Assembly: GCA_021234155.1 (NCBI GenBank)
Contig: JAJEKV010000165.1
Location: 186,001 to 250,000, forward strand
Length of the DNA: 64,000 nucleotides
Direction of reading: 5' to 3'
From: Isoetes taiwanensis
Taxonomy: Eukaryota; Streptophyta; Lycopodiopsida; Isoetales; Isoetaceae
Under the pieces are notes generated by a model. The model was given only the letters and a program-made list of their open reading frames with translations, had not been told where the DNA came from and made no database searches. The translations under genes were made by a program, and so were the position numbers. Shown in pieces: positions 4,901 through 64,000 of this stretch (positions within the stretch are counted from its first letter, which is position 1; each line of letters begins with the position of its first letter).

Positions 4901-5569
4901 GGGCGGCTCCTTCCAATCGGTTGATGTGCCTATTTGGGTAGGTCCCCAAATTGTTAATGCACAACGTCTTGTGCATTCATTATATCAAAAGGCGGGTTGA
5001 TGTTGACATTGTCCCCCTCTGACCGGTTGGCGACTTCGCATTCCCCTCCTCGATGGAAGCGTATGTGGTCCCGGGGTGCGGAATAAATTGTTTGATCCCA
5101 AAGTTTCTACCTTATGGTGGCAACTCCTTCCACCGGATGTCTGCTTGGGTTAATGTCTTTGGTTCATAAGTTTTATCCCCGCATTTCAGATTTTTGCACT
5201 TTGTGTAAGCGGCAAGTTGAGAGTATCGAGCACTGTTTTTTTCTATGTGACCAAGTTCAGCCAGTTTGGTCATGGTTACTATCTCTTTTCCATGTGGCCT
5301 TGACTAGCCAGCAGGTGCTTCTCGCCATTTATCCTTCCACTTGGAACAACTTGAAGCAGCAGGCTTTCCACTTGGCTTCAGGCTGGTTGTTGTGGTCTAT
5401 TTGGAAAAGAAGGCGAATGTGTATCTTCAAATGCTTATCAATTAGTGTCGACCAACTTCTTCACGAGGCAAAAGACAGATTGGTGAAGGCATATCTATGT
5501 TCTCAGCTTGCTCCTGAGAAAAAACATTTGATTTTTGAGGAATATTTGAGTATCTTATCTTATGCTTAG
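1917..5569 (+). pseudogene. LINE ORF2 (endonuclease, reverse transcriptase, zinc knuckle), broken
   Basis: ORF2 makes the nicking endonuclease and reverse transcriptase for target-primed insertion. It starts at ATG 1917 with the EEP signature ILSWNVRG. A frameshift near 1950-1975 leads into the remaining endonuclease (FFCLQEHK, VNVYAPN, LVGDFNM, SISDHNP) up to TAG 2831-2833. A second frame from 2842 carries the reverse transcriptase: KCPGLDGFPVEFFQ, WRPITLLSTVYKI, LDFAKAYDSIDW, GVRQGCPLAPLLF and QYADDTFLFL. This frame has in-frame TGA 3580-3582 (where Arg is usual, so probably CGA to TGA) and TAG 3643-3645. Further frameshifts follow near 4085 and at several later points. The zf-RVT knuckle (CTLCKRQVESIEHCFFLC) and the C-terminal tail lie at 5114-5569. 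It cannot make active protein. Confidence 0.92.
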
Positions 5570-11308: not shown

Positions 11309-11475
11309 TTCTTCTTCTTCTTCTTCTTCTTCTTCTTCTTCTTCTTCTTCTTCTTCTTCTTCTTCTTCTTCTTCTTTCTTCTTCTTCTTCTTCTTCTTCT
11401 TCTTCTTCTTCTTCTTCTTCTTCTTCTTCTTCTTCTTCTTCTTCTTCTTCTTCTTCTTCTTCTTCTTCTTCTTCT
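11309..11475. repeat. (TTC)n microsatellite with one phase break
   Basis: About 167 bp of TTC repeats with a single extra T near 11376 that shifts the phase. GAA/TTC tracts of this length can form triplex DNA. The poly-Ser/Phe and poly-Glu/Arg open frames across it are artefacts. Confidence 0.98.
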
Positions 11476-11989: not shown

Positions 11990-14404
11990 TCACCAATTGT
12001 ATCCTTTTGCCCTGAGGTGACATTAACTAGAAAGGATTGGAATAGTAGCATATCTAGCATTATAATTTCTCAATTATCAATCATTCCCATTAGACGAGAA
12101 CTAATTTCTTAGTCCCAAATCCAGCTGGTCATGTTGATAATTGTTCAATAGCATGATAATTTTCTTACAACTTTAAATTTTCAGATGTAAAAATCAGATT
12201 TCATACTCTTCTTAATGTTTTAAACAAGATAATACTTAAGCTCATACACTTAAGTTATGCGATTCCATTTTTGCCTTTCAATAAACTAAGGCAGCAAAAA
12301 ATCTAATGGAAACACAGAAATATGAAATATTTAGCTAGTCTAATCGATTTAGCAAATATCTTAATCATTTTATTCATGAAACAGTGAAGAACCTGATATT
12401 TGAAGTCTCGAGATAGTATACTCCAGAATAGGCATACATCGTTGCCTAGAATGCCATCAAATCTTTAGCGCATTTCGGCATTTTCCAGGAGCCATAATAC
12501 ATAGCATGCAACCATGTTTTAATCCCCAGCAGATGACGTGCGTGTCATCCTCCACCTTAAAATGCATCTGTATTATAAGGCAGAAATAGAAAGTATATAT
12601 TTCAAGCTCATTTGCAAGCCGTTATTTGTATTCAAAGTTGGCATTACCACATCGATCTCATTTACCTCTGTAGTTATGTTTTGATATAAGAAGGAATATG
12701 CAGAGCACCAAGTACTTAGTAAGGTCGATCAGAGCACCAAATACACAAAAAGCTCCACCTTAGATCAAAAAGATAAACTCTGACATGTTATCTGTTGTAT
12801 GCCAACAATCCATATCCGCTTCTATTTGCAATAGCATCTAGCACAAAGACCAGTATGAGCACTCAGTAGCTATTCTTGCAGGTAGAACAAGCTTGGCACA
12901 ACAAATCAAGATTGCAAGGCCAGACTAGTATATTTAAACAATATATTTAGCAATACAGCCTTCTTTAAGTTAATCGATGTTGTGCCTAGCTGCATAAGAG
13001 CCTTCCTTAGGATTGAACGATACCTTGCCTAGGCTGCATAACTGACCAGTAAATTTCGTACAGGGCATAAACAAACCCATCTTCAAAGCATCGACATCTT
13101 GCATAACAAAAATTGTGATATCAGAGCATTGTATTGTATTTACAGGGAGCAAATCCGCTGCCATTATCCTTCAATAAGGAACAAGGTGAGATTACCGTTC
13201 CAATCTGTGTACTGCAATAGATCCAGCATCATATTTTTCGGCTGCACCAAGTCATACAGGAGGCCAGTTTGGCGCCAAGCATTTCGGCCATTTGTAGTCA
13301 CGGACATTGAAAATATCCTTTTGCCCTAAGAGACAATATAGAAAAGCCCTAAATCGATTTCTATTTATGCCCTTGAAATATTTTTCAAGGGGTTATAGCC
13401 GTGTAGACGTCAAATCCATGCAAATAAAATAGAATAAGTCTTCTGCATCCACATAAACAAAAGCACTTTTGTGCTCAACGTAATTTATGTAGAGCAAAAA
13501 GCTAAGCCAAAAGGTGCATGTGCATTATATAGACAAGTGGCACACATGCATGACTAAGGCCACCAATCTTTAGAATAGAGCGTCCTATTCAAGCCATATA
13601 ATTTTTCCAGAAGTTACAACACATAATGTAAAATTTGTTTGTAGCATTCAATATGCAACATATAAATTCGTTTGCACACCCATATAGGTAGTAATTTATC
13701 TTGCATTTTTCCATTTTTGTATTGTCCCTCCAACCTTGTCAAATATCATGCTCCATGTCAAATATCATATTCATGTAGAAAGCCTTCTGTGTCACCACGG
13801 AATTAAGAGAAAGCTTGTTTACCATGTAGAGTCGTTTGTGAACAATATGCCACAACGCTTTTACATGCCTTGATTTCTTTGCCAATTTCTATCCATTGGA
13901 TTTTTTTGCCTTTTTCTAGGCCAAATAAGCTATTTGAGCAACAAACCATTGTTAACTATTTTCAAAGATCTCATTTTCAAAAGCTTTTTGTCCCATATTT
14001 TAAATGTGGAACCATATAGCTAAAAACAATTTCACACAAGCGGCCTTAATCGCAAAAGTACGTTGAGCCACGCTCAAGATGGATAAATTTCCCAATGTAC
14101 ATCCACCTTATATTCTTGTTGTCCAGACTATAATTTTTTCTCAAGTGTATTAATAGATTTTTTGGCCATAACCAAAGTAGAGTATAAGTCTTCAGAATGA
14201 ATCACCCTATACATTCAAAGCCAAGCTACAAATGATGAATGTGGTAAGATCGCCTCTAATTCTTGTCACTCAAGAGCTTTAATGGCAAAATTCAAACTCC
14301 AAAGGTTACAATACAATACACCACATGCAACCCTATAGATTTCAATGTTATCCACTCATAAGATAACGTCATTCAACCTTAAGAAGATCCAAAGAGAATA
14401 TTCT
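11990..14404. other. Long stretch without a recognisable gene
   Basis: AT-rich, only short random-looking open frames. I see no splice-supported coding region, RNA gene or transposon terminus. A weak repeat D relative lies just before it at about 11900-11990. Confidence 0.5.
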
Positions 14405-14574
14405 CTTCTTCTTCTTCTTCTTCTTCTTCTTCTTCTTCTTCTTCTTCTTCTTCTTCTTCTTCTTCTTCTTCTTCTTCTTCTTCTTCTTCTTCTTCTTCTT
14501 CTTCTTCTTCTTCTTCTTCTTCTTCTTCTTCTTCTTCTTCTTCTTCTTCTTCTTCTTCTTCTTCTTCTTCTTCT
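14405..14574. repeat. (TTC)n microsatellite, about 56 uninterrupted units
   Basis: The longest pure triplet tract in the window, with no interruption, followed directly by repeat C copy 3. Lack of interruptions suggests recent expansion. Confidence 0.98.
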
Positions 14575-17533: not shown

Positions 17534-18304
17534 ATGTTTACACCATGTGAACCATGTGACAAGGCACACATTAGACTAATAAAATCATTTAAAGGAGCAC
17601 CCTTTGCACACCCTCCATAGGCCTATCTAAATCATAAGAGAATTATCAAAAGATGAAGAAGAAGAATCTTCTTCTTCTTCTTCTTCTTCTTCTTCTTCTT
17701 CTTCTTCTTCTTCTTCTTCTTCTTCTTCTTCTTCTTCTTCTTCTTCTTCTTCTTCTTCTTCTTCTTCTTCTTCTTCTTCTTCTTCACCAGGACCATGTTC
17801 AGCCATCGCCACATGGTCATGGCTCATCTTCTATAAATTATATATATAGTAAAATAGCAAATGTTCCCAAAATAAAATTTCTAACACTTATTGTTCATGC
17901 ATCAAGGCGTCAAAGAATAGAATCATAGTGTATAAATTACATATGAGTTGATTTTATCCTTCAAAAAAAAAAAGTACATATGAGTTGATGAATTGATAAA
18001 TATATGTATATGGCATATGTCACATATGACACGTGTTGTGTCATATAGGGGCATATGTGTCACTTTATATATATAGTGTGAGTGGCATACCATGTACGTC
18101 ACTTATGTCGTATAGTTGTCATATGACATATTTATGTCATATAGGGGCATACGTGTCATTTAAATATTACGTGTTACTTTATATATTATTATCACTCATA
18201 TATAAAATATGTTTGTCTTTTGTTTCAGCTAATTTGTTTGACGCCAAAAAAGCCAATGGTTGATACATGTAAATTTTGTTTGAAGTACTCCACTCCTCAA
18301 ATCC
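17534..18304. repeat. Repeat A, copy 2 (contains a TTC microsatellite)
   Basis: Partner of 5922-6621. At the 5' side of its triplet tract, four GAA units face the TTC units, giving a local inverted repeat. Confidence 0.88.
17655..17785. repeat. (GAA)4 then (TTC)n microsatellite
   Basis: GAAGAAGAAGAA is followed by about 40 TTC units inside repeat A copy 2. Open frames of poly-Leu, poly-Lys and poly-Glu across it are artefacts. Confidence 0.98.
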
Positions 18305-30229: not shown

Positions 30230-30642
30230 AGAGGCCCAGGGATTTGAAACCATCATTCAATTAAATTGGGATTATGTCTATTCCAAAATCGCGCCGTATA
30301 AGCCTTTTATTGACCATTATATTGAACTAACCACACTTTTACACTGAGTTCATTTTCAGGGTAGGAAGATGCATTTTGTGTTGAAATGCAAAGGCATTCA
30401 AATATTCGATGCAAATGACCCATATTATGACAGAATGTTGGCATTATAAAAAGTAGGAAATTGCTTATTAATTCGTACCATCACGGACGACAACGAAATT
30501 TATACATTGAAATTCTAGTGTTTTACAAATAAATAACGGCAAGCAAGTTGCTACAAAACAGAGATTTTTGTGGTTCAAATCGCGCGTGGCGCGATTTGAT
30601 TGGCATAAATAACGCATTGTAATGGAACATAAACTTAAAAAA

Positions 30643-30873
30643 CTAATCCGATTCAGAGTCGAGAGGTGATGCAGGCGGTGCTGAGATCCTGTCGATCATG
30701 AACAAACCATGTTCTGGATTCCATATAAGATGGATTACAACATCAAAGGGATCAGGATAGAAGCGGACGGGATTCATAGCAACGACATCAAGCCAGTCCT
30801 GAAGTTCTATTTCTAGCTCGCGGCACCTGCAGAGGTCCGCATGGTTCATCTTGCAGGTAATAGAATGTGCCAT
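30643..30873 (-). CDS. Hypothetical 76-residue protein near the element end
   Basis: From ATG 30873 to the stop at 30643-30645. The start region has paired Cys residues (ITCKMNHADLCRCRE), the middle is acidic and aromatic (WLDVVAMNPVRFYPDPFDVV) and the end is Pro/Ser/acidic (SPLDSESD). I do not recognise it. It lies between the element terminus and the 3' end of the chimeric gene, on the same strand, with one palindrome copy between it and the terminus. It could be an independent accessory ORF, a further 3' exon of another transcript, or chance; the balanced composition makes chance less likely. Confidence 0.4.
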   Translation of the reverse strand: MAHSITCKMNHADLCRCRELEIELQDWLDVVAMNPVRFYPDPFDVVIHLIWNPEHGLFMIDRISAPPASPLDSESD

Positions 30874-31141
30874 AATAACAAGCAGAAGGCGGAGGCCGAA
30901 GCCGTTGGTTCGTCAATTTCATGCATACCTATTTATACACACCTAAATTATTGACGTTATATACATACAAATTATTGCAAGTATAGCAAACCATATATAC
31001 ACATAATATAAAAAAACAACACGTACACAGAACCAATAATGCCGATATATAAACACAATATATATTCGAATGAGGTTGGTGTAAAGTATATATTTCATAT
31101 TCAAAACTTTTTGGAAAGTGTATTTCCTGTATACATATATA

Positions 31142-31775
31142 TCAAAACAGTTCCCTTTCTAGAACGATTTTCTCAAGGTCCCTGTCAATTTCCCCTGTCC
31201 GATCAAGCTGCGGGTATAGTGTTTGTATCTCTTCGACCGTTTTTCCTGAAGCTATTTCATGCAAGACCCTAACAAAACAAAGCAGGAAGTCATCTTTGTC
31301 AAAATCTTGAGGATGATAGGGTGGCGGATTCAATGATTGTGACTGATTGAAGCAACACTTTAGAGCGTCATCATCCACCATGATCATGCCTTCCTTATCA
31401 TCAACACCTAGGGCATCCATCATGTTGCGCAAGCATTTCACAAATATCTTTTTACCTGTCGGTTCTTTAGGGTTTGTGAATGAAGCACATTTGCTTTGAT
31501 CCCACATGGACGCCCAATTTCTATTTAGTTCAGGCACTACTTTCAAAACATCCTGTATATTTCTATGCTCCATAGATGACCAAATTGCACAACGAAACAG
31601 ACTGAAGGTCTGGTCCAACATCTCCTTCAGATAAGGGCGCGGGTAAACATATTTGGTACGTGTCTCAAGTGGTTGTTGCGCATACCATGACTTTTCAAAC
31701 GTTGCTTTAGGTAACGTTCTATATAGCACACCATTCAAATCAAAGACCAGTACTTTTGGGGAAGCCAAATCATTT
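31142..31775 (-). CDS. FCP1/NIF-type HAD phosphatase-like exon (last exon of the chimeric gene)
   Basis: The exon starts after a good acceptor (TTCTCCTTACAG, 31776-31778 on the minus strand) in a phase that fits the donor of the previous exon. It encodes about 210 residues of FCP1-homology fold: motif I VLVFDLNGVLYRT, motif II CAIWSS, a Lys region (KKIFVKCL) and motif IV MIMVDDD. FCP1-like enzymes normally dephosphorylate Ser/Thr using DxDx(T/V). Here the second Asp is Asn (DLN), as in some plant relatives, so activity is uncertain. The C-terminal part (YHPQDFDKDDFLLCFVRVL, then KTVEEIQTLYPQL) is homologous to the exon at 53849-54069. The frame ends at TGA 31142-31144 without breaks. Confidence 0.8.
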
Positions 31776-31972
31776 CTGTAAGGAGAACAATAACGTATGA
31801 GATGAAAGAAATGGAAAACGAAAACGTGCCAGGCGCGATTTCATTAATGATGCATGTCAACATAATTTAAAAATATGCTCTAGGAAACTCTAAATCGCGC
31901 CAGACGCGATTTCTATATGCTTGTAGTTTGTAAAATGCATGGATATCAAAAAAAGGAACATTGTCACGATAC
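31776..31972 (-). other. Intron holding two palindrome copies
   Basis: Donor GAAAG|GTATCG (G at 31972) and acceptor CTTACAG| (G at 31776) give matching phases: two bases of an Arg codon before the intron, one after it. Two CGCGCC-type palindromes sit at about 31829 and 31893, which would disrupt the protein if exonic. Length 197 bp, normal for a plant intron. Confidence 0.7.
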
Positions 31973-33945
31973 CTTTCTTCTTCATCATTCCCCGTGGTCT
32001 CTTCTTCCTTTGCATCTTTATTCTGAGTTGCCTCCGGTCTGCTAGAAGCACCAACCACATCAGTTGAGATCTGTACAGTGTGAACTACACTTGATAGTTC
32101 ATTACTCTTTACACTAACCTGGCTAGTGTTTTCAGATTTGGAGTCTGCTTCATCATCAGTATTGTTATTATCATCATCCTTGTCATTGTCATCCTGGTCT
32201 ATATTTCCACTGTTAAGGATGTTCACAGGCATGTCGATAGGTACTTGGTGATCTGCCTGCTCGTCCATGTCATCCATGAAGTTGGAGCCATGCAATGCCT
32301 GTCTCATAATCTCCCGTTCCTTAAGCAAATCTGAAGGTATTTCGGCCTTAGAGGTAGAAGCTTTGTTTTTTGCACTGCCGATTGGTCCCCTAGGTGCTTC
32401 CTCTAGTACTTTCTCAAAGAAGAGGTCCAAGAAATTTTTGGCTCGATCATCGGAGACGACGCTCTGGCATTTCCTTGCTAACTTCAAAGCTTCTCTACCG
32501 ATGTAACCTCCAACGTGAAGTTCCCAGCAAGTTGTTCCCAATGGACAAAATGCTTCAATGAGATACTGGGAAAGGTCCATAGAGAACCCGTTCTTGTTTA
32601 GCTTCCCCTTTATGTGAAGTTAGGAGCTCATACTTAATGTGGCCCACAAGAACTGGGTCGTCCTCATTTTCTTCCTCTTCTTCCTCTAACTCTTCCACGA
32701 CCTTGACAGCCTTCCCCTTGTCTTCTTGCTCCAGATAGAAGACGTTTCGCAGGATGCGTTCATCTAACTGATAGCACTGCCATGCTAGTTTATCTCCATC
32801 TGTTTTTCCCTTAAGCCTTTCATATTCCTTATCATCCATCATGGCTATCATAATAATAAGCACATGAGAAATTTTACTTGCTGTGCTGAAGTCACTGTCC
32901 TTGTTTTCATCTATGAGGATCGCCTGTCGTATGACTTTCACGCATTCTAAGTCATTTGCAGCACTTAGAGCATATGCATAGGACATGTCAGAGGGACATA
33001 TAGTGACGATTGTGTAATTCATTTCTGTCGTGCAACCACTGCATATGTTGAAGAATGTATTATAGTCTTCAAGCGACCATCTGGTGCCTCGGCTATCAAG
33101 CACGAAGAGTGTGATATCATGGGGACCTTCACCCACTTCTGGCAAGGCACACTTGAAACCAGTGGACACTTGATAAAAAAACGTGGATTCCGTCTCCGGG
33201 GTCTGCTTCACCAACACGACTTTTCGTTTCAAGTCGGATGCAACTTTTGTGTGAATCCCACTGATCTTTGCAACGTTCTTCAACTTCTGCTGCTTGACAA
33301 AGTCCTTGGACCAAAATACATACTTCTTTAGGTCGTCGTTGGAGACGTTATACTTTTGCATGAGTCCTAACTCCGACAACGACCACTCTCCTGTAAGCCT
33401 TTGTAATTCCTCACCAACTGCCTTCTTGAGCACTCTAGTATTTTTCAGCTCGTCGCATGCATCTTCAAAGGATTCCATAGCCTTTGTTGCTGAGGTTTTC
33501 TTGTAAAGGATTTCCTTTCTGATTAACCTATCCAGGACTGAGATGAGTTCTTTATCGTCCAATCCCTGGGCCTTCCTCATCTCTGTTATATGGATATCAA
33601 AAATTGATGTGTCAACAGGAGGAAATCTTCCTTGTGAATCTGGCAACTTCTTCTCCACGTAGACATCCCAGAATTCATTCCATTTCTCCCATACTGGATC
33701 TGAAGCAAAAACTATCTTGCAGGCATCCTTGGGTACAGTTGGTTCTTCGGCAGCATCACCCTTTTCATCTCCTTTTTTTTTTCTTTGTTCTGGTGCTCTT
33801 GGTCTTGTCCTGTATTATAGTCTGACTAAGTGTCCTTTCCAGCAACTTGAATTCAGCGCTTTTAGACTGGCCCTGTCTGGTCGGCATTGGCTTCCCATAT
33901 TCAATCCACTGGTTTCGAGCATGCCGAAGTTGCTCTATATGGGGA
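31973..33945 (-). pseudogene. Methyltransferase-like exon of the chimeric gene, two apparent frame breaks
   Basis: A long exon after the acceptor TTATTCCTTGCAG. The first segment (HIEQLRHARNQWIEYGKP...) is basic and ends in a Lys run coded by A10. Removing one A keeps the frame into the next segment (DPVWEKWNEFWDVYVEKKLP). About 330 residues follow, with a Rossmann-like stretch (HDITLFVLDSRGTRWSLEDY, TIVTICPSDMSYAYA), then an acidic linker. A second one-base break near 32565-32580 precedes YLIEAFCPLGTTCWELHVGG and EALKLARKC. That resembles motif I of beta-class DNA methyltransferases, whose catalytic motif comes first. The catalytic DPPY is absent (LDSRGTRW stands there), so the domain is likely a non-catalytic relative. 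The exon ends in a Ser/Asp/Glu-rich tail at donor 31973. Confidence 0.62.
33773..33782 (-). other. A10 homopolymer at a frame break
   Basis: Ten A on the coding strand. Nine would join the two flanking open frames without a stop. Either a real disabling insertion or a base-count error in the assembly. Confidence 0.7.
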
Positions 33946-33997
33946 CTGCAAGGAATAACTTCGTTAGCTTCATAATCGTGAATTCAAACAATCCTTC

Positions 33998-34323
33998 TAG
34001 TTTAAAATCGCACCACGCGCACTCTAAATAGTAAAGGATTTTTGGAATGGTAGACGTTTCTCGTCAAATAAGCAAAACGCGCCTAACGCGATTTCATATT
34101 ACAATGCTAAACGCGCCACGCGCGATTTGCCCACGTTGAGGAGAAACGGCTATCTTCAAGGACAGCCATGTCTCCTCAGACTAGGCAAATCGCGCGTGGC
34201 GCAATTTGTATTCTAATATGAAATCGCGCCAGGCGCGATTTCTTTATTTGACGAGAAACGTCAACCATTCCAGGAGACTTTTGCTATTTTAGAGAAGGCA
34301 AATCGCGCCTGGCGCGATTTGCC
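33998..34323. repeat. Long foldback inside the ParB-methyltransferase intron
   Basis: Nested inverted repeats. The innermost arms are TGAGGAGA/TCTCCTCA and GGCT/AGCC. The main arms, about 90 bp each, run from TGGAATGGTAGACGTTTCTC (34043) to the complementary end GAGAAACGTCAACCATTCCA (34272) with about 90% pairing. The outer arms extend to about 33998 and 34323. The arms contain six of the palindrome copies. A transcript through the intron would form one long hairpin. Confidence 0.88.
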
Positions 34324-34411
34324 TTCTAATATGAAATTAGTTTTTCCCATGTCATTCAGGAGTGCGCTTATTTCCGCTAGTTCGGGAGGTGGTGTTGAGC
34401 CGCTCAGGAAC

Positions 34412-35335
34412 CTGCAGTTTCTGGCAGCTTATAGAACAACTGATTCCCAGTATGATGTGCCTTCTTGATGAGAACCTTCTGGGCCTCTATTGAATGCTGG
34501 CCATCTATTATCATAAAATGTATGTCTGGGTTCTCGATGAAGTCCTCCAGCTTGCTCCAAATGATTACCTTCTTTGTTCTGGTATCGTATGGCACTACAT
34601 CTGCAGGCATTGGCACCTGCCCTGGATTTTCGATCATGCTGTTCACTATCTCCAAGGAGTGCTGCTTGTCATACCTTCTGCTGATATAAATAGCTTTAGT
34701 GGACCTGAAAAGCCTATCCACGTGGACTGGATGGGTGAAGCTCAGGCCCAGTGGATACTTGTCGGCATATTTCTTCAGTTTGCTCATTGCCTCCAACTGC
34801 CTGGCCTTGTCATCGTCACTTGTAAGGCCTGCTGTCACTTCTGTAGTTTCCCTGCCTTTAGAGCTAGCTTCTTCCTTATCCTTCACTGCCTGTAAGTAGA
34901 CACTGCCCGAGGGCTTCATGCTAATGGCTCGTCGAACAACTGTAAGCCCCTCGCATATTCGTTTAGGAGTCAATGGCTCGCCAACTTTCCAGCCAAATTT
35001 AAAGAGGTTATCGGCCATGTCGTCTGATCTTAATGCAGTCTCTTTGAAAGAGCTAGCACTGCATCGATTGATCTTCTTTAGGCTCTTCTTATTTTTTTGG
35101 CCCACTTCAACTAGCACTGAACAGAAAGAATCGTCCTGTATTTCGCATGTGATAAGAATTCCCTGCTTCTTCATTTGATCAGTCTCTCTTACCCTATACA
35201 TGAATATGAGGTCTGTCTTCCCACCAGTTTTAAAGATCTCTACATACCATTCTGACCCTTCTACAAGATCTTCTTCTGGACATGGAGGTTCTACCTGAGC
35301 CTTTATTATTCCGAATGTATCTTCTAACGTCAATA
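34412..35335 (-). CDS. ParB-like domain exon of the chimeric gene
   Basis: About 305 residues. The first 190 residues (FGIIKAQVEPPCPEEDLVEG onward) are not recognised. The C-terminal part is ParB/sulfiredoxin-like: HPVHVDRLFRST, then RRYDKQHSLEIVNSMIENPG and MIIDGQHSIEAQKVL. DGQHS stands for the GxHR/GQHR motif of ParB-type domains, but Arg is replaced by Ser. In bacteria and phages ParB domains occur fused to beta-class DNA methyltransferases, which fits the downstream exon. The preferred acceptor is CTGCAG|TATTG (35336-35338), which fits the phase of exon 1. An alternative acceptor at 35437 adds a basic stretch (KPIKRRTKQG) but then meets a TGA. The donor GCAG|GTTCC at 34412 does not match the phase of the next exon, so a further break or missed exon lies between. 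Confidence 0.65.
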
Positions 35336-35924
35336 CTGCAGATCTGTAACAGTAACATCTTCATCTGTCCTTTGCTTTTTCTGGGCTGAAGAGGTCTCGC
35401 CTTGCTTGGTTCTCCTTTTGATTGGCTTTTGTGATCCTGTAAAATTACAGCACATGGTTTAATCTTTTAATGCTAAAACATATGCTATGTCGAAATATAT
35501 GCAAGAAAAACGCGCTTGGCGCGATTTGAAAAGAATACAGAGCAAGTTCATTTACTTAAAATGCTCAGGACACAACTAACTATAAAAAATACAACTTAAA
35601 TTGTCGAATCTACATCTCAAGATATGGAAACTAATGTAATGCCTTATTCAACTGCGGCTTTGAGATAAATAACTATAAACACCACAACTTAAATGGTTGA
35701 ATCTTCATCAGAGGACACAACAAACTATAAAAAACACAACTAACTACTGAATACTATTTAGCCACACATTAAGCATACATTTTTGGGACATATGAACTCA
35801 AATATTAGAGGACACATGCTTCTTATCGGATAATAACTCTATTATTACAGAAAAACATCCTAAAAAAAACCTAACAAAAAAAGGGACACAGAAATCAATT
35901 GCAGAACAAAAACAGATCAATTAC

Positions 35925-36051
35925 CTGAGGCGCTTGCTGGAATTGTGCTTTCTGCTTGTTCAGAAACCTCCAGGCTTTGCATTTGTGCTTTGGCCTGTCG
36001 CCCACCTCTACCTGCGCCTCGGCCGCGGCTGCCAGATCCTCTCGACGCCAT
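35925..36051 (-). CDS. First exon of the chimeric gene (RG-rich basic N-terminus)
   Basis: ATG 36051 opens MASRGSGSRGRGAGRGGRQA followed by KAQMQSLEVSEQAEST, ending at a consensus donor TCAG|GTAATT (35924-35921). Arg/Gly-rich tails of this kind bind nucleic acid and can be methylated; nuclear location is inferred. The exon leaves one base (G), which fits the acceptor at 35336. The upstream region 36052-36280 has no obvious TATA box. Confidence 0.7.
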
Positions 36052-36445
36052 AGAACTGCAAGTGAGGATAATATGAGACTGGGGTTTTGGTTTAAACTTA
36101 TATGTATGCGTTCATAATCTAGGCCGTCAGATTTACAACCGTAAATTCAAATTCGCGTCCTTTTCAATTATACCGCCTTAATTAACCGCCCGTCCCGCTC
36201 ATTTACAAATTTAAAATGTGTTTTTCTTTTCAATGCAATTTCAAGAAAACAAATAATTATTATTATCAAGAAACGCATATGTGGCAATCTACTACCACCT
36301 AATCGACCACCTACTATCAGAGCACCCTCAATCGGCCCGCCTAGAACGCCCAAGATCAATCGATCGAACGCCCAAGATCTACAATCGATCCCAAGATCAA
36401 ACGATGTCTGCTGAACTGAGGTGGGTGTGGTTCCATTCCGAATTT

Positions 36446-36515
36446 ATTTTTCGTCCTTTATTTTTCCCAATTCGTCCTTTATTTTTCCGAATTCGTCCTT
36501 TATATTTCCCAATGC
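36446..36515. repeat. 27-bp tandem repeat, about three units
   Basis: TCGTCCTTTATTTTTCCCAA occurs in three variants in succession. The open frame reading through it as repeated RPLFFPI is likely a consequence of the repeat. Confidence 0.85.
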
Positions 36516-36529
36516 TAATTCTAGCATTC

Positions 36530-36775
36530 TGGTTCTTTATCAGTGTCGGAGAAGAATGCTATCTTTTAACAGCAAACTTGAAGCGCCGAGTAGGATTATG
36601 TAAAATCGAAGATCTGAATCCAAGTTCTATGTGTCATGGTGTTCCTCTTGGAAACAGTTTCTGTAAGATTTCCATTATAAACTGCAATTATGAAGATGAG
36701 GTTCTTCCACAGTTGGTGAAAGCGTGGGCACATTTGTAGCATGGCCAAAAGAACGTTTGAAAAAGGTATGCATAT
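36530..36775 (+). pseudogene. DUF8039-like fragment of an En/Spm-type transposon protein
   Basis: Reads VGLCKIEDLNPSSMCHGVPL then GNSFCKISI and DEVLPQ. A frameshift near 36712 leads to VGESVGTFVAWPKERLKK. The order 'HG.PLG...V.V......LP......G.FV.WP' is the pattern I know from the DUF8039 region of plant CACTA-associated proteins. Only about 75 residues remain. It lies on the opposite strand to the chimeric gene, just upstream of it. Recognition is from memory of the motif pattern, so moderate confidence. Confidence 0.5.
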
Positions 36776-37097
36776 TAGGATATTCTAAAAAAAAAGAATA
36801 TATCATAATATCTGCGTGATGTTGTGAATTTTGAATTCTTTGATGTTCTTTAGCCAGTCTTATCAACCCCATGAAACCACACATTAATGAAAACGTGTAG
36901 TTTCTTGGGGTTGGTCATACTGGCTGGAGGGCATCAAAGGATTCAATATTGCATATAAAAAACATAATAAACTAAGCGTGACATAAAAGTATAAAGTGCA
37001 AAATTGCGCCAGGCGCGAGTTTGTATTCATATTCAAAAAAAGTATATGTACATTTCTTCTTCTGCAAAAATGCGCCAGGCGCGAATTCCTTCTATCT

Positions 37098-37517
37098 CTA
37101 CAACATGTCACATAGGCCCACTTCATCGGCCCAATACCGCCAAAAGTCCCACCTGAACCACTCTGATATGACAGGATCCTCATCTTCCCTGCGAATGTCG
37201 AGTCTCCAAATCAGAATGTCCCGTCGATCCTTGATACTCCTAATCAAATCCTCGTACTTATTTGTTGGCATGAGCCTTACTAAGAGCATGAGGAGCCGCA
37301 TATGTCCAGTGATGCGATGGAAGCATTCCCATGGCCCCTGATACAGACTGTCATATGGATTCTCCAACTCTCTTTGAATGTTTTGAACAGCACAATCAAG
37401 TAATATCTTGTACAGGGTCCAGCGTTGATGGTCGTCCAGGAGAAGTGTCTTTGAACTAGAACCAGCCAGTGTATTTGAACTAGGAGCAGCCAGTGTATTT
37501 GCAAAAGGAGCATCCAT
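37098..37517 (-). CDS. Hypothetical 139-residue protein within the palindrome-rich element
   Basis: A clean frame from ATG 37517 to 37098. The N-terminus has a short repeat (SSNTLAAPSSNTLAG-like, Ser/Thr/Ala). A helical, aromatic-rich body follows: WTLYKILLDCAVQNIQRELE, FHRITGHMRLLMLLVRLMP, then RRDILIWRLDIRRE and WFRWDFWRYWADEVG. No known domain and no membrane span (hydrophobic stretches are amphipathic). Palindromes flank it on both sides (37001, 37066 and 37598-37754), placing it in the same element as the chimeric gene and on the same strand. Could encode an accessory or DNA-binding protein; this is a guess. Confidence 0.5.
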   Translation of the reverse strand: MDAPFANTLAAPSSNTLAGSSSKTLLLDDHQRWTLYKILLDCAVQNIQRELENPYDSLYQGPWECFHRITGHMRLLMLLVRLMPTNKYEDLIRSIKDRRDILIWRLDIRREDEDPVISEWFRWDFWRYWADEVGLCDML

Positions 37518-37775
37518 GGCACTAGAACGAGAGAAATTAACTAATTAGCAAATGATATTACTTTCCCCATAAAACGATTCTGAACATACATAATTCAAAA
37601 CGCGCCAGGCGCGTTTGCTTTGTTTTTTTCACAGATCTATTTCACACGCGCCTGGCGCGATTTGTATAGAGCCGTATGAAATAGAAAAGCCAAACTACAA
37701 ACGCGCCTGGCGCGCTTTGATTAACCTAGTGAAAAATCGGAACCCAAAATAGAAATGCGCCAAGCGCGATTTCTC

Positions 37776-38617
37776 CCATTCTAACATTATTCTAACAGAA
37801 TGCAGAATGCAGAATTCAAAATATGAAGCCAGTGAATATGAAGGCAGTAGAATAGAATAGAATGAAGGCAGATAGAACAGATATATAATAATAATACTCC
37901 TTGTTTAGTTCATTATTTAGTTCATTGTTTTAGTTCATTATTTAGAGCAGATAGAGGAAGAGCTAGTGAAATAGAGATAGAAGCAGATACAGCAAAATCA
38001 TATAAGCAAGATCATAGAGCAGATCATATAGGCAAGATCATAGAGCAGATCATATAGGCAAGATCATAGAGGAAGATCATATAAACAATAGAACATGTTT
38101 ATAAGCAATAGATCTATATATGAAGGTGCTAGGGCAGTTTAGGACTGATGCATATAAAAGTCTAAGCCAGAAAGCACTCCCCTTGATTAACCCTGAAGCT
38201 CATATACTACTTTAAGTAAAGAACAGGAAATACTAACCTATTTGTGTTCTGTACCTGAGATTTGAGCTTTTGCCTTTGAGCCGAAACCAAAATTCGAAAT
38301 AAACGCTCTCCATTCCACCCCTTATTCATCCCTTATTCCTTAATCTACACCGTACGTAAAGTTCCTCGTTTGTGGGGTATGCAAATACAAAATTTGCTAT
38401 ACTGTATAACAAGATTCGCAAAATACTATAAGATTTCAAGCGGAATACTATATGGTGTTGATTTTGTACGTGCAAAATACAATTATGAGGGCTCTCGCTG
38501 CCCGACGTCACCCCCCGTGTGAATATGCACCCAAACCAAAGGGGGTTTAAGGGGGATTTTAATTTAAATGTGTTGGACCCAATGGTTGTGTTAATTAATG
38601 TCAATGGTAGTTATATG
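37776..38617. other. No gene recognised; AGATCATA-type local repeats
   Basis: Contains short tandem repeats (GCAGATCATATAGGCAAGATCATAGA twice or more at 38018-38085) and GAATAGAATAGAATGAAGGC. No ORF of interest and no inverted terminus matching 30248. Confidence 0.5.
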
Positions 38618-44672: not shown

Positions 44673-44836
44673 AGAAAAAGAAAAAGAAAAAGAAAAAGAA
44701 AAAGAAAAAGAAAAAGAAAAAGAAAAAGAAAAAGAAAAAGAAAAAGAAAAAGAAAAAGAAAAAGAAAAAGAAAAAGAAAAAGAAAAAGAAAAAGAAAAAG
44801 AAAAAGAAAAAGAAAAAGAAAAAGAAAAAGAAAAAA
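44673..44836. repeat. (GAAAAA)n hexanucleotide microsatellite
   Basis: About 27 uninterrupted units of GAAAAA. Poly-Lys, poly-Arg/Lys and poly-Phe open frames across it are artefacts. Confidence 0.98.
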
Positions 44837-48512: not shown

Positions 48513-49603
48513 TAGCACGAAAGTTTGCAAATAAAGCAAGTTGAGGAAATAAATCAGCAAGCTGAGGGCCATTGAGCAATTGCAAAGCATACTTCAGAAA
48601 GATAGGGCCACTTTTCACAACCACACAGTCAGGAAGACCGTGACCAGAAGGAAGAGAGACACAAATTTCAGCACCATCAACAATAGAATGGGCCAGATGA
48701 GTACCCAGACTATTAGCAATACTGATAAGAAACTCCGGCACCAAGAGATCAAGAGGAAGATTAGGAATAGAAAACCAACATGGCATCCGAGCACTAGTCG
48801 TACCAGGAGAAAATCCAGGCGAGTAAGGCTAGTACAAAATATAATCACTCCACATTGGGTCCACACCACATGCCACCAGTTGCTCCACAGCCACAACATC
48901 ATCAAAAATGATCAAGAAGAACTTCTTATCCAGCATCTTTAAAGTACGATAAGGTGGCAACCTAAATCTCTGAAGATGACCAGTCAACCAATAGCCAAGC
49001 TTCCTAGTGTCAAGAAATGCTCCAGTATATTGACCAACCACACTAAACGACAACAAGTTACTAATACACTTCTTGTGTAAGTCATGATCAATCTCAACCA
49101 CATTGTACCCAGACGCTTGAAGAGTATTCTTACACATTTCAGGCTGATAGAAAACTTCAACAGGAGGTAACTGAAGCTCCAACTGAGTCTCCTTTGCTCG
49201 CAACTCGCCCAAAAGATTACTGAGATCTCTTTTATTATCCTGAATCATCGCATCAATAGCTGTAGCAATACACACAGCAGACGTAGTTGATGACAAGTCC
49301 TTCTTGATCCAGTCACTAAAGCGCTCCTTGCTAGCATTTACTCCAGAAGTTGAGGACCTCCAAGGAAGTGGACGGCACTGATCTTTGTTAGAATTGGCAC
49401 CAGCTGGCGCCAAGGCACCATTTACCGTTATTCAAAGCACTTGTATTCTTCGGTGCACCAGCTGAGGGTGCCAATACAGGAAAATCATCGTCTTGACAGA
49501 CATTCTCACTATAAGCCAGAGGGTTAACATGCAATGCCAAATTTGCCCCCTGCACCAGCATGGATACAGGAGGTTTTGCAGGCAGCTTGGAAGTTGACGC
49601 CAT
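48508..49603 (-). pseudogene. LINE-type ORF1 (DUF4283-like) without ORF2
   Basis: Minus-strand homologue of the ORF1 at 321-1920. It starts at ATG 49603 (MASTSKLPAKPP...) and has a one-base shift near 49425. It continues FSDWIKKDLSS, DKKFFLIIFDD and MPCWFSIPNLPLDLLVPEFL to a stop at 48508-48510. An in-frame TAG near 48826 stands where the related copy has Gln (LLYQAYTPGF). Residues after FANFRAI and the whole of ORF2 are missing. Upstream, 49604-49800 looks like a LINE 5' leader. Identity to the first ORF1 is only moderate, so it is a separate family. Confidence 0.85.
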
Positions 49604-50290: not shown

Positions 50291-50599
50291 ATGTTTTGGG
50301 TGGTGCTTTTGAGTTGTTCCAGCAAGTGCCTCAGTATTTGGCTTCTTTGAGCAAATGCCAAAATGTAGCATGTCCTCAAACATTATTGTATCTAGCTTTA
50401 TCAGAGGATATAACTTGCCATGATTACTGTAGTACTAACCATCATTCAATTAAATTGGGATTATGTCTTAATTTTGGGACAAATTTTATAATGCATGTTT
50501 TTAGTGGCATACTAAAATTCACACATTTCATGTCAAAAACACAAAAACGTAATATCATATTACTTATAGAATAGACAATATTTCACAATATAACACAAT

Positions 50600-52600
50600 A
50601 TCATATTTCACAAAGAGAGAACTTTTGCTCAATCACTTTTTGAAATACACTTATTGAGTTTCGTAAAAATGTAATAAGCTCCAATTTCATTGAAAGAAAA
50701 AAAGATAAGCTCAAGTTATTATCTTTTGTAAAACCTACAATCTTTCTCCTCTGTCTTTTAGCCAAAACCTTTCATGCTTCCTCGCTTCATCAATGCCCTT
50801 TCTCCATAAAGACAAACTCATCCCAATATACAACTTATTGTATAGTAGCACCACGCCATTTCCAGCAAAACTACAATATTCAAGGAATGAGAATTAGTCC
50901 TTCTAAATTGATAAGTAAACTGAGACTTGTAATTAGCAGGATATGTAAGACTCACATTTCCAAAATGGCGCGACTCACTTGATTATGCTATCACGCCAAA
51001 ACATGCTCCAAGAAGTCTAATAAACGACTATTATATAGATGTATTGTAGGACAAGAACGCTATACATGCTGCATAAACATGATATCACGAATAACCTTAG
51101 AAATATTGGATATTACCAAAATAATGGTGTAATACAAAAATTTTAAAAATAAGTCGAAAAACTGAATAATAAGTCAAAAAAGTTAGGTTTACTTTATAAG
51201 TGGGTTACATTAGAATGCATTCAATCACGTAAAAAAGAAGCTAAAAAGGATGGATTTACTAGAACATAAAAGGTAAAATAATAGAGACCTTCAGAAGTAG
51301 ATGATGACAAAAGTAGAGGCTTTAATTGCAAAAATAGAGATACGCTTGGCGTGGCTTCACAAGCCCATATTACATGCTAAAATTGAAACACAAAAGAAGA
51401 AAATGACAAATTGTTAAGAGTGGCTTCCCGAGCAACCAGCATAAATAATAGCATAAATTTCTCTTATTATGTACAGACTAGAAGACGCACAGAACTCATA
51501 ACATACAGGATGATTACGAGTTTTGTTTTTTTCTGATGCTTTACCTTATATGAAGTCTGTGCAGCCCTTATGAAACGCCTGCCATGAATCGGAAGAAAAC
51601 ATAGCACAGCCATGAGCAAACTCGAGTAAATGAAAATGTTAACTGAGATTTTAGACCTTTACCTTAGAAATGTTTTGGTTGTCGGGATAGACAACTCGAA
51701 TTTCAAATGCGGCAGGGCCTGAAAGGAAGGGGCGGCGCGGCGCAGGCTTGATGCTACCGTGAATCGCAGTGTAAATCGCCCAAATAATTTATAGGTGACA
51801 TCCTTTTTTGCAGGTACGCATCAAAATATGGCTGCTAGAAGAAACGGAAGCGCAAATATGTAAGAAATAAAAATGAATCAAACCTGGAAGCTCATATTCA
51901 TGCTGTGGGATCTATTTCTGCCAGATCGGCTCTGTTTTATTTTCGAGAAATGCTTTGGGCCTATAGTATCGGTGGCTGCATCGAAAATAAGAAGGTAAAA
52001 GAAAGTGCAAGAATTCAAATTTGAAGAAACACGTGCGGAAATTCAAATTTACAAAACACATTTTGTGCTTCTTCTTCCAGCTTCTTGCTTGATCCATGGC
52101 TTCCTCTTTCATCCATTCATGATACAGATGTGATCTTTCGAGAGCAGACATACTATAGTTGCTGATTCTGGAACATAACATGCCCATTTCGGCATAGACA
52201 TCCATTTCTTTCTGTGTGGCGCTTTTGTTATTTCTCTATGTGGCTCTTTTGCTAATTCAAGCCTTCATTCCCTCTCTGTGCCTTACGAATCCAGCAATGA
52301 TGATCTCTATTCCAATCTGCCCATTTCTTAGAAATAATATTGCCTAAGAAATAACATTCTAAGGATTTTTTATTCCTGAAAAGAGTAGATGCCATAGCCA
52401 GGGCTCTTCTGGAGAAAGAGATACATACAGAGAAAGAGATACATACAGCGTGGATAGAAAAAATGGCAGACAGAATGGCCGATGGAGCAGGCGCTGCAGT
52501 CGAATTTGGCGATGGCAGCTCCTTTGATGGCGCAGACAATTACGGCGCCTACAAGGGGCAACTCTGTTGCCAGACTTCGATTCCAAATAGGAGCTTCTAA
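50600..52600. other. Left part of the 4.1-kb element, no gene recognised
   Basis: AT-rich; minus-strand open frames at 51912-52205 and 52252-52539 show no domain. A 17-bp repeat AGAGAAAGAGATACATAC occurs twice at about 52414-52448. Confidence 0.45.
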
Positions 52601-52621
52601 AAACCCTTGGCGATGGCGATA

Positions 52622-52698
52622 CAGCAGGTATGGATGTGCTTAGATAAAGAAACAGGGGAACGGTATGGATGTGCTTAGATAAAGAAACAGGGGAACGG
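52622..52698. repeat. 36-bp tandem duplication
   Basis: GGTATGGATGTGCTTAGATA then AAGAAACAGGGGAAC occurs twice in succession at the 5' edge of the kinase fragment. Confidence 0.95.
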
Positions 52699-52875
52699 TT
52701 AGCATGCAAAATCGTAGATGGAGCAAAAATAAAGAGGGAAATTGAATTAATGACGCTCGTTTCCGGCCACCCAAATGTGGTTTCTCTATTTGGTAATGGA
52801 TCTATGCCATGGAGGCGAGCTGTTCCATCTGATTCACGAAAAGAGTGCCATCTATCTGCTTGGAGATGCAGCTAT
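52660..52875 (+). pseudogene. Captured kinase fragment (CDPK-like N-lobe)
   Basis: Reads CLDKETGERLACKIVDGAKI, then REIELMTLVSGHPNVVSL. After a deletion of about 11 codons and a frame change it continues LVMDLCHGGELFHLIHEKS. These match the VAVK/ACK lysine strand, alphaC glutamate helix (REIELM), SGHPNVV and hinge LVM(D/E)LC.GGELF of calcium-dependent protein kinases. The glycine loop, catalytic HRD and DFG and the EF hands are missing. It lies inside a transposon, so it is most likely a transduplicated gene fragment. Confidence 0.82.
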
Positions 52876-53117
52876 AGATGGCGGTGACTATGGCATGCAT
52901 ATCCTTTCTTCTTTGTCTCGTTTGTTCACTTCCGTTTCTCTGTTTCTTGCTTGCAGATGACGACGGCTATGGCAAAAGATGGCGATGGCAAAATTGCAGC
53001 AGTGGTATGACCCGACAGGCAGGCATTTATCCTTACCCGATTTTTTTTTTAAAGCTTTCGTCTGAGTTTTCTTTTTAGAGCTTTTTTATGAGTTTTTAGT
53101 CAAGTAAGAGGGAATTT

Positions 53118-54495
53118 AGGACACGCTAAGCGTGATTTTCCAGAAGAGTGATATCTTAAATCACGCCAAGCGTGCATTGGTCTATAGCAGAGTGGATCCT
53201 AGACCACATATTAGCACCTTAACAATAAAAAACCAATTCCCTAGTGCTAAAACTCCTTGCTTGGATCTTACAATGGTGTTGATGTATAAGGTATATCTTC
53301 AACTTTACTTTTACAATATTATTGTGCAAGCTAATACACGCTAGGCGTGATTTGTTTTGTTTCATAGTAGGTTTCCTCTAGAATATTATGCTTGCTAATA
53401 CAGGCTTGGTGTGATTTGTTTTGTTTCATAACTAAGTTTCCTTTACAATACACACTTGGCGTCATTTGTTTTATTCCATAACTAAGTTTAGTTGTTGAAA
53501 TAATTAGAGGAATGTGATGACGAGTTTGAACTTGCAGGGGTAACAACCACAACACCTCAATCATCGAATCAAATAATGCACAAGTGCAGGGAACTCTAAG
53601 AGTAGCCTGGAAAATAATTAGAAAGGACTTGGCTAGAAGATATAGTCATCTTTCTCCCGTCTTGCTATTAGCTGGAGAATCTCTAGTATCAATCTCATTT
53701 CTCTATTGGATAATATTAAGTTTCCTTGTCCACATGAAAAATGTGACATACTTGTTATATACTTGTCATCTTATATCTTTCTTACTTTTCCATTACAAGA
53801 TATGATGTTATTAATGCTAAGAAGTTTGTCTCTTTTTATAATACCTAGTGTGCTTCTACCATCAAACTCAAGCCCAGAATCCATCATCTTATGATCCGAA
53901 CAACTTTGCAACAGATGAGTTCATAGTCCAATTTATAGCTATTGTGAATAATTTGGCTAGGGGGATGACAGTTTGTGGAGTGTTAGAATCGCATCCAGAA
54001 CTAGACACGGCAGCTAACATGGAAGATAATCTTGTTTCTTATGTAAGAAAACATGGATTGATTCCTTAATTGGAATATCATTATTTTTATTGATAGTTGT
54101 TTGATATATCCATAATTTTAAGGTTGTTCTTGCCCAAAAAAAAAACGCACCTTGTTAAATATATGGAAAAACATGTATTGATCCCTTAATGTTTTATTTG
54201 AAAATATGATTGTTTTTAATAATATTTGTTTCATGTATCCATAATTTCGGGGTTGCTCTTGCCCCGAAAATAAGGTCATCTGTGATCAAATTACATATTA
54301 GTTTTGTTCCAATGTTCTTGGATTTGGATGTCATGAAATTAAACAACTTGCCCTTCTGTTTTGCATATTTCAAGTCGCATTTAAAACGACTCATGGGAAC
54401 TGCAAGATTTATGTGATTTATCAAGTAAAAAAAAAAGATAAAAAAAAACAAAAATCCCCTAGAAAACAACTGCAGGTTGGCGTGATTTTGGAATT
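53118..54495. repeat. Worn copies of the CGCGCC palindrome
   Basis: ACACGCTAAGCGTGATTTT (53121), AATCACGCCAAGCGTGCATT (53158), ACACGCTAGGCGTGATTTG (53336), ACAGGCTTGGTGTGATTTG (53399), ACACACTTGGCGTCATTTG (53452) and TTGGCGTGATTTTGG (54477). Most differences from the 30-38 kb palindromes are CG to TG or CA, the signature of 5-methylcytosine decay. Confidence 0.8.
53849..54069 (+). pseudogene. FCP1-like C-terminal exon, second locus
   Basis: After an acceptor (TTTTTATAATACCTAG, AG at 53847-53848) the exon reads CFYHQTQAQNPSSYDPNNFA then TDEFIVQFIAIVNNLARGMT, and stops at 54067-54069. It aligns without gaps to the end of the exon at 31142-31775 (CCFNQSQSLNPPPYHPQDF, then KDDFLLCFVRVLHEIASGKT). 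The catalytic HAD part is not found upstream, so only the tail remains. Its position beside the right terminus mirrors that of its relative beside the 30248 terminus. Confidence 0.75.
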
Positions 54496-54699
54496 GACAT
54501 AATCCCAATTTAATTGGATGATGGTTTACTTGTCTTGTTTTTGCCCATTTTTAAGCACAGTTTTGGTAGCATGCCACAGTACCATGCAATTTTTCCAGGG
54601 CCGTTTAGAAACAAACACCTCTATCATTTCGAGCAAAGAAAAGCAGCAAAATCATGAGAACGATTTGTCCATAACCACTACAAGAGAACAATGATTTAT

Positions 54700-63541: not shown

Positions 63542-64000
63542 CTAGGCAAAAGCATTTTGGGACAAAAAGGATAAGTCATGGGATTGCATGACTTGGCTCC
63601 AATCAAAATTGGACAGGTCAGCTTGGAAGCCTGCCATGTCAGCCTGCCAGGTAGGCATATCAACCTGCCATGTAGACAGCTCATTCACCCAGCTCTCAAT
63701 ATCTGCCACGTGTTCAGCATTTAGAGGTTGAGCATACAAGCTTGGAGCCTCCTGATGGTAAGAAACTCCAAAATTTGAATTAGCATCTGGATTTCTAACT
63801 TCTGGCATACTGTTGCATAATTTAACATTCTCATGAGTCTGTGCATCAATGAATGGCACTGCCATCTTGTAGTTTGAAACTTGGCTACAGAATTGCGCCG
63901 ATGCCGGCATGGCAGAACTGTCAGTCATTCTTTGCCTTGCTTTACAGACATTCCAGAAATTCTTGATCTCATTGTCTGTGCGTCCTGGTATTCTCCTTGC
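63542..64000 (-). CDS. R2R3-MYB transcription factor, C-terminal part (gene continues beyond the window)
   Basis: The first 24 codons from the window edge encode the end of the R3 repeat: ARRIPGRTDNEIKNFWN, then VCKARQR. PGRTDNEIKN(Y/F)W is diagnostic of plant R2R3-MYB recognition helix 3. A 128-residue C-terminal region follows with no zinc finger or EAR motif that I can see. It has a small imperfect repeat (STWQVDMPTWQADMAGFQAD) and an acidic-aromatic end (NFDWSQVMQ) that could serve as an activation domain. The stop is TAG 63542-63544. The usual NT..(I/L)K after NYW/NFW is replaced by NVCKA, which is unusual. Start and other exons lie outside. Confidence 0.93.
   Translation of the reverse strand, partial: ARRIPGRTDNEIKNFWNVCKARQRMTDSSAMPASAQFCSQVSNYKMAVPFIDAQTHENVKLCNSMPEVRNPDANSNFGVSYHQEAPSLYAQPLNAEHVADIESWVNELSTWQVDMPTWQADMAGFQADLSNFDWSQVMQSHDLSFLSQNAFA

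Follow-up and report, generated by a model that had tools for sequence, protein, structure and literature searches.

Analysis of a 64,000-nucleotide stretch of genomic DNA from the lycophyte Isoetes taiwanensis (hereafter the window; contig C980, positions 186001-250000) revealed that a chain of four minus-strand exons between positions 31142 and 36051 is the second gene (gene 2) of a high-copy, cut-and-paste-type DNA transposon, and not a plant host gene. An earlier note on this DNA had described the chain as a gene joining ParB-like, methyltransferase-like and FCP1-like parts in a combination unfamiliar from any described gene; that "chimeric gene" is a decayed copy of the transposon gene. 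The element also carries many copies of a 21-bp palindrome, AAATCGCGCCWGGCGCGATTT, which the earlier note had not mentioned and which we consider the most informative feature of the system. The combination of a second gene, a conserved protein product, a private motif lying outside the exons and variants of this motif in related elements leads us to propose an element-specific regulator. Our leading reading, held tentatively and at somewhat less than even confidence, is that gene 2 may encode a DNA-binding protein, most likely an anti-silencing factor, that works like the VANC proteins without being a member of their family.

Exon coordinates were read from the sequence alone, and genome-wide searches covered the assembly to which the window belongs (1,658,258,908 bases in 1,110 contigs); labels such as C1049, C1089, C1047 and C1028 denote contigs of this assembly that carry other copies of the element. 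The chain begins, as described previously, with an RG (arginine-glycine)-rich start exon at 35925-36051, which ends CAG|GTAATT in phase 1 and has tblastn matches in five of ten other copies. Exon 2 (34412-35436, minus strand) holds the ParB-like DGQHS stretch; in this copy its frame is interrupted close to the start and ~7 nt are lost before its donor. The exon labelled methyltransferase-like, exon 3 (31973-33945, minus strand), is broken in frame at a run of nine thymidines (T9) near 33790 and again near 32600, and is a single open frame of 690-717 amino acids in four other copies (L007, L008, L010 and L019). Exon 4 (31142-31776, minus strand) encodes an FCP1/NIF-like HAD domain in which DLNGVL stands in place of DxDx(T/V). 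Both DGQHS and DLNGVL are present in the sequence, and the splice sites between exons 3 and 4 are those already reported.

The earlier observation that the phases of exons 2 and 3 disagree is correct for the window copy but not for the gene. In C1089 and C1047, exon 2 reads LYSVRNC up to a phase-2 donor, TGCCG|GTTCCT, which fits the phase-2 acceptor of exon 3, TTGCAG|TC. The window copy lacks ~7 nt immediately 5′ of this donor, which explains its phase conflict, and contains three further frame breaks elsewhere; these frame defects are lesions of this copy or, in part, assembly error at the T9 run. A different defect occurs in C1028, where the exon 3 acceptor has been lost (GCAA for GCAG). The splice phases along gene 2 (1, 2, 2) are mutually consistent, and exons 2 and 3 are neighbours in many genomic copies. 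As far as such comparisons can show, the four exons appear to form one spliced gene, as had been suspected, whose predicted product of roughly 1,250 residues would comprise an RG-rich start, a basic stretch, a ParB/Srx-like region, a large central region and a NIF-type HAD domain.

The element that carries gene 2 is ~12.3-12.8 kb in length and is bounded by 32-bp terminal inverted repeats and 4-bp target duplications. The copy in C1049 is complete, measuring 12,755 bp with perfect 32-bp inverted repeats and the target site duplication (TSD) ACCA, and the C1089 element measures 12,464 bp with the TSD AAGA. The third element for which both ends are in hand is a second, shorter one within the window (50437-54526, ~4.1 kb), which is related, has nearly the same inverted repeats and a TSD of TACT, and gave no alignment to gene 2. 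Terminal inverted repeats, exemplified by C1049, and a TSD of constant 4-bp length in three of three cases are features of class II elements. The copy that contains the exon chain in the window is truncated (30248-38299, minus strand): its right end lies at 30248, and its alignment by blastn to ten other copies and to C1049 stops at ~38299, such that the left ~4.3 kb, including the gene described below that encodes a DUF7869 domain, is missing. Its right terminal inverted repeat (30248-30279; 32 bp, AACCATCATTCAATTAAATTGGGATTATGTCT read inwards) is followed at 30286 by a half-site of the palindrome, AAATCGCGCC. One right end is common to the window copy and to ten copies that were picked by exon 3 similarity and fetched with their flanks. 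One copy in C974 has its right end joined directly, at about position 2529 of L037, to the left end of a further element oriented the same way (GGTT|AACC).

Genome-wide, 718 + 723 exact matches to the 31-bp end were counted, whereas a control gave 0. Among the first 100 ends listed there are 23 adjacent convergent pairs, 15 of which span 12.1-14.0 kb and 8 of which span 18-327 kb. Searches of the genome with individual exons, window included, returned at least 130 matches for exon 2 (5265 first-look candidates, 125 scored), at least 103 for exon 3 (5518 candidates, 100 scored) and at least 150 for exon 4 (6227 candidates, 150 scored); the presence of these exons in at least 100 copies each led us to reject the host-gene reading. 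When the first 41 of the 130 exon 2 matches were compared with 82 of the 103 exon 3 rows, 25 had a same-strand exon 3 match 509-1480 bp downstream. Apart from the window itself, exon 2 matches vary in identity between 49%, for a match containing one stop, and 97%, for one that is partial, and 9 of the 30 that cover at least 290 residues at no more than 81% identity contain no stop, as counted by eye. Among the articles listed in searches of the openly accessible literature, none describes the element in its title or in the beginning of its abstract.

The left half of the element contains a gene on the opposite strand whose product carries DUF7869 (E-value 1.4e-24 in C1049 and 1.1e-10 in C908), a domain that the element thereby shares with other proteins of Pfam family PF25273. 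In all, 123 exon 2 places (of 130 rows) were compared with 90 DUF7869 places (of 96 rows) on the upstream side. Seventeen pairs lie within 15 kb of each other, all 17 of them divergent, and 14 are separated by 4.6-6.2 kb. This divergently transcribed DUF7869 protein is probably the transposase; a search of the openly accessible literature found no paper under the name DUF7869. Two additional open frames were observed in the element. One, of 148 amino acids (37101-37544, minus strand), lies between the two genes, is also open in C1049, and reaches the cut-off of no Pfam family (DUF1040 at 0.084); palindromes border this frame and none falls inside it, and it could represent a third protein or a 5′ exon. 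The other (36257-36736, plus strand) has a counterpart in C1049 with a weak, below-cut-off match to Transposase_23 (0.029), and may be a distant exon belonging to the left gene.

Scanning for the 21-bp palindrome with at most 5 mismatches yielded 17 sites in the C1049 element, 15 in C1089 and 16 in the window element, as well as 5 in the 2,950 bases of C1047 and 2 in the second window element. Outside these two elements, the other 51,856 bases of the window yielded none, nor did three flanks, and Markov shuffles gave 0 sites or, once, 1. In the window element, six sites lie upstream of exon 1 (37001-37772; at 37001, 37067, 37597, 37643, 37698 and 37752), one in intron 1 (35507-35527), six in intron 2 (34005-34320; at 34005, 34074, 34108, 34187, 34221 and 34300), two of which are perfect, two in intron 3 (31821-31912) and one downstream of gene 2 (30577-30597). 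The sites therefore occupy all three introns and both sides of gene 2, and by coordinates 0 of 16 fall in exons 1-4. Exons 2-4 account for ~30% of the C1089 element but contain 0 of its 15 sites (chance 0.005, with exon bounds approximate), and the left ~4.8 kb of the two full-length copies has none. Comparison of the two full-length elements with the window background revealed that the 14 listed top 8-mers and the top eight 10-mers are all parts of the palindrome. Genome-wide, 613 perfect sites were counted, compared with 0 for a reversed-pattern control, and 33 of the 34 perfect sites compared (contigs C38-C277, of 50 listed) lie no more than 13 kb inside an exact element end; by simple arithmetic, such stretches constitute about 1% of the genome. 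The palindrome is largely confined to the element, where it lies outside the exons of gene 2. In C67 and C112, perfect palindromes recur every 42 bp in small tandem arrays ~1.6-1.8 kb inside the element end.

Palindromes of this kind might instead act as RNA or DNA hairpins in splicing, termination or small RNA production, or constitute a separate spreading repeat, in either case unbound by the gene 2 protein. We judge this explanation to be rather unlikely. Every palindrome is necessarily self-complementary, all three introns contain sites, and those in intron 2 sit in and beside a larger inverted repeat with 129-nt arms, as the hairpin explanation would lead one to expect. This explanation fits less well with the sites located upstream and downstream of gene 2, and a separately spreading repeat is difficult to reconcile with the near-complete restriction of perfect sites to these elements. 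Sequence variation argues in the same direction. A symmetric variant of the palindrome, AAATCACGCYWRGCGTGATTT, occurs at 32 places genome-wide, and in 4 of the 16 such places for which the letters were shown, the two outer changes are the sole differences from the main site. The corresponding one-sided change occurs at 40 places, from which independent changes would be predicted to yield less than one double change. This excess of symmetric double changes favours a dyad-symmetric protein site, and a symmetric variant is what would be expected of a site bound by a dimer.

Related elements carry further versions of the motif. The second window element has a variant palindrome, CACGCYWRGCGTG, with two sites identified by scan (53158 and 53333) and a third by eye, in addition to a variant half-site at 54479, near its right end. 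A neighbouring element in C1056 similarly has a variant half-site at its right end and a full variant site ~470 bp inside (C1056:8045068). Between subfamilies, the palindromes are nearly all that intron 2 retains: alignment of this intron from C1047 (343 bases) with that from C1089 (547 bases) is almost confined to the palindromes, and after these are masked only one 20-bp match and two short words are left.

Ratios of nonsynonymous to synonymous substitution (Ka/Ks) were calculated with a Nei-Gojobori script. Between C1047 and other copies, exon 2 gave Ka of 0.10-0.11 and Ka/Ks of 0.042-0.059 (3 pairs), and exon 3 gave Ka of 0.14-0.18 and Ka/Ks of 0.051-0.086 (10 pairs); Ks in these comparisons is 1.9-2.9, a saturated range in which the ratio is rough. 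Between subfamilies, purifying selection on exons 2 and 3 is strong. NIF domains occur widely in plants, and gene 2 could in principle have begun as a host gene that the transposon captured and has since carried as passive cargo. The presence of 100 or more copies and the purifying selection just described speak against this origin, to which we assign scarcely any probability and which we regard as disfavoured.

Among the domain labels, only that of the last exon is secure. Exon 4 matches Pfam NIF (PF03031) with an E-value of 3.1e-17 (63.2 bits, cut-off 21.8), in agreement with its previous designation as FCP1-like. NIF/FCP1-like HAD phosphatases have the catalytic motif DxDx(T/V); the window copy, C1049 and C1089 all have DLNGV, with asparagine in place of the second catalytic aspartate, and so depart from the motif. 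The NIF match is the sole Pfam match above cut-off in the exons scanned, with none to DUF1985 or DUF287. A match of the NIF exon to troponin C, its best in the Protein Data Bank (PDB; E-value 0.008), was taken as chance.

The ParB and methyltransferase labels reflect motif resemblance by eye and are not secure. The stretch of exon 2 from VHVDRL to DGQHS..EAQKVLI appears to follow the order of a ParB/Srx domain, which we take to be resemblance only, and ELHVGGYIGREAL could by the same standard be read as methyltransferase motif I. Pfam searches at E-values up to 10 gave no match for exon 2 or for the C1049 exon 3 frame. PHROGs returned unknown families only, at 0.13 or worse, and PADLOC returned nothing; no PDB sequence reached an E-value below 0.3 with exon 2 or exon 3, whether these were entered singly or in profile form; and the one NCBIfam match, to a substrate-binding protein (0.0025), fell far below its cut-off. 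For profile-profile comparison we used two phage families of 81 rows each, the L046 family (N6_N4_Mtase) and the L049 family (ParB_N + N6_N4_Mtase). These find each other at 98.8%, whereas the transposon profile scored 17.1 and 19.8 against them and its reversed control scored 18.9 and 16.3. Cutting the profiles to the ParB and methyltransferase regions brought no gain, with hhalign probabilities of 0.2% against both families for the former and of 0.2% and 1.8% for the latter. The predicted structure models of exons 2 and 3 had mean predicted local distance difference test (pLDDT) values of only 31.7 and 31.1, and were left unused for that reason. A viral origin was rejected after viral contigs were scanned with exon 2 and exon 3 alignments, which gave 65 and 44 pattern matches, 0 of which passed tblastn; a tblastn search of protein P0001 against phages found nothing.

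These results bear on the idea that gene 2 encodes an enzymatically active fusion of ParB, methyltransferase and phosphatase, which would mark the palindromes through methylation of bases. By eye, its motif order is like that of beta-class methyltransferases, and the Streptococcus phage Javan3 protein L049, in which ParB_N (3.9e-5, just below cut-off) is joined to N6_N4_Mtase, likewise shows by eye a GxHR/GQHS-like motif and, after it, a region containing a G-rich motif. This resemblance has no statistical support, however, with no profile match at any threshold used; moreover, the Pfam matches of L049 do not include NIF, and gene 2 lacks the typical catalytic motifs, having no DPPY and DLN for DxD. 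We therefore consider an active enzyme very improbable. The earlier note suggested a protein that binds or regulates and does not act as an enzyme, and this is still our best guess.

To our knowledge, VANC, described from Arabidopsis, is the case of a plant transposon protein that removes the silencing of its own family in a sequence-specific manner. By analogy, the gene 2 protein would bind the dyad-symmetric palindrome as a dimer, which would limit its action to its own family. By occupying sites along the element, it might keep the noncoding regions free of host silencing, drive transcription of both element genes, or do both; the central region and the NIF domain would then serve less as enzymes than as modules for binding or recruitment. 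VANC acts on VANDAL elements in this way, which would have been reached here with unrelated parts. VANC21 of Arabidopsis binds the motif YAGTATTAY, which has accumulated in noncoding regions of VANDAL21, and causes methylation to be lost over the element; related VANCs use other motifs (PMC5735166, PMC10398659). The Isoetes element resembles VANDAL in having a second gene beside a probable transposase gene, a short motif accumulated in its own noncoding parts and variants of that motif in related elements. It differs in that its motif is a 21-bp palindrome and in that the gene 2 protein has a NIF domain and no DUF1985 or DUF287 match. VANDAL elements have a 9-bp TSD and are not known to carry inverted repeats, in contrast to the 32-bp inverted repeats and 4-bp TSDs found here.

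Several points weigh against an anti-silencing regulator of this kind. No observation links the palindrome specifically to gene 2, and its partner could instead be the DUF7869 protein or a host factor; ParB homology, the ground for expecting site-specific binding, is unproven. Across nine copies, CpG is changed to TG or CA in 24 of 307 cells (7.8%) inside palindromes and in 70 of 1160 (6.0%) outside; because CpGs in palindromes are kept no better than those outside, these data give no hint of an escape of the sites from germ-line methylation, and protection of the palindromes from CpG decay was rejected as unsupported by this comparison. Young copies also show higher Ka/Ks (exon 2, 0.13-0.52; exon 3, 0.15-1.0), and for the NIF exon all pairs are young (0.32-0.89). 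The copies entered in these comparisons had been selected for their similarity in exon 3 and for open frames. Exon 2 is open in one frame over its full length only in C1089 and C1028 among the ten flanked copies. Taken with the low ratios between subfamilies, the higher values among young copies indicate that gene 2 is maintained during the active life of elements and degenerates once a copy has inserted.

The main rival to this proposal casts gene 2 as a transposition accessory factor, much like TnpA of En/Spm: its product, or else the DUF7869 protein, would bind the palindromes in order to build or control a transposition complex and would play no part in silencing. The two divergent genes per element and the palindrome half-site just inside the right inverted repeat are consistent with such a factor. 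The sites, however, are not packed at both ends: they are scattered over the introns and on either side of gene 2, and the left ~4.8 kb of the two full-length copies is free of them. On balance we view an accessory role as possible though unlikely. A more elaborate, and quite improbable, version of the regulatory proposal is a partition-like system. A ParB-like protein would load at parS-like palindromes, spread, shield the element from silencing, and couple this to transcription through a captured domain resembling a phosphatase of the C-terminal domain (CTD), with subfamilies changing palindrome and protein together. If the anti-silencing proposal is true, a lycophyte would provide a second solution to sequence-specific anti-silencing, one that uses unrelated protein parts, implying that this capability evolved more than once. 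Its target rule would be directly testable, with protein and site available together in vitro, and a long recognition site would be added to the tools for plant epigenome editing.

Elsewhere in the window, frames at 1898-5566 (plus strand) look by eye like those of a non-long-terminal-repeat (non-LTR) retrotransposon, with an endonuclease followed by a reverse transcriptase; two frames that are alike by eye, at 649-1590 (plus strand) and 48832-49431 (minus strand), may be open reading frame 1 (ORF1) of that retrotransposon. The segment at 63545-64000 (minus strand) appears by eye to be the last exon of an R2R3-MYB-like gene (TDNEIKNFWN). Long, nearly perfect microsatellites of TTC/TCT and AGAAAA are present at 11309-11475, 14404-14574, 17667-17785 and 44673-44835.

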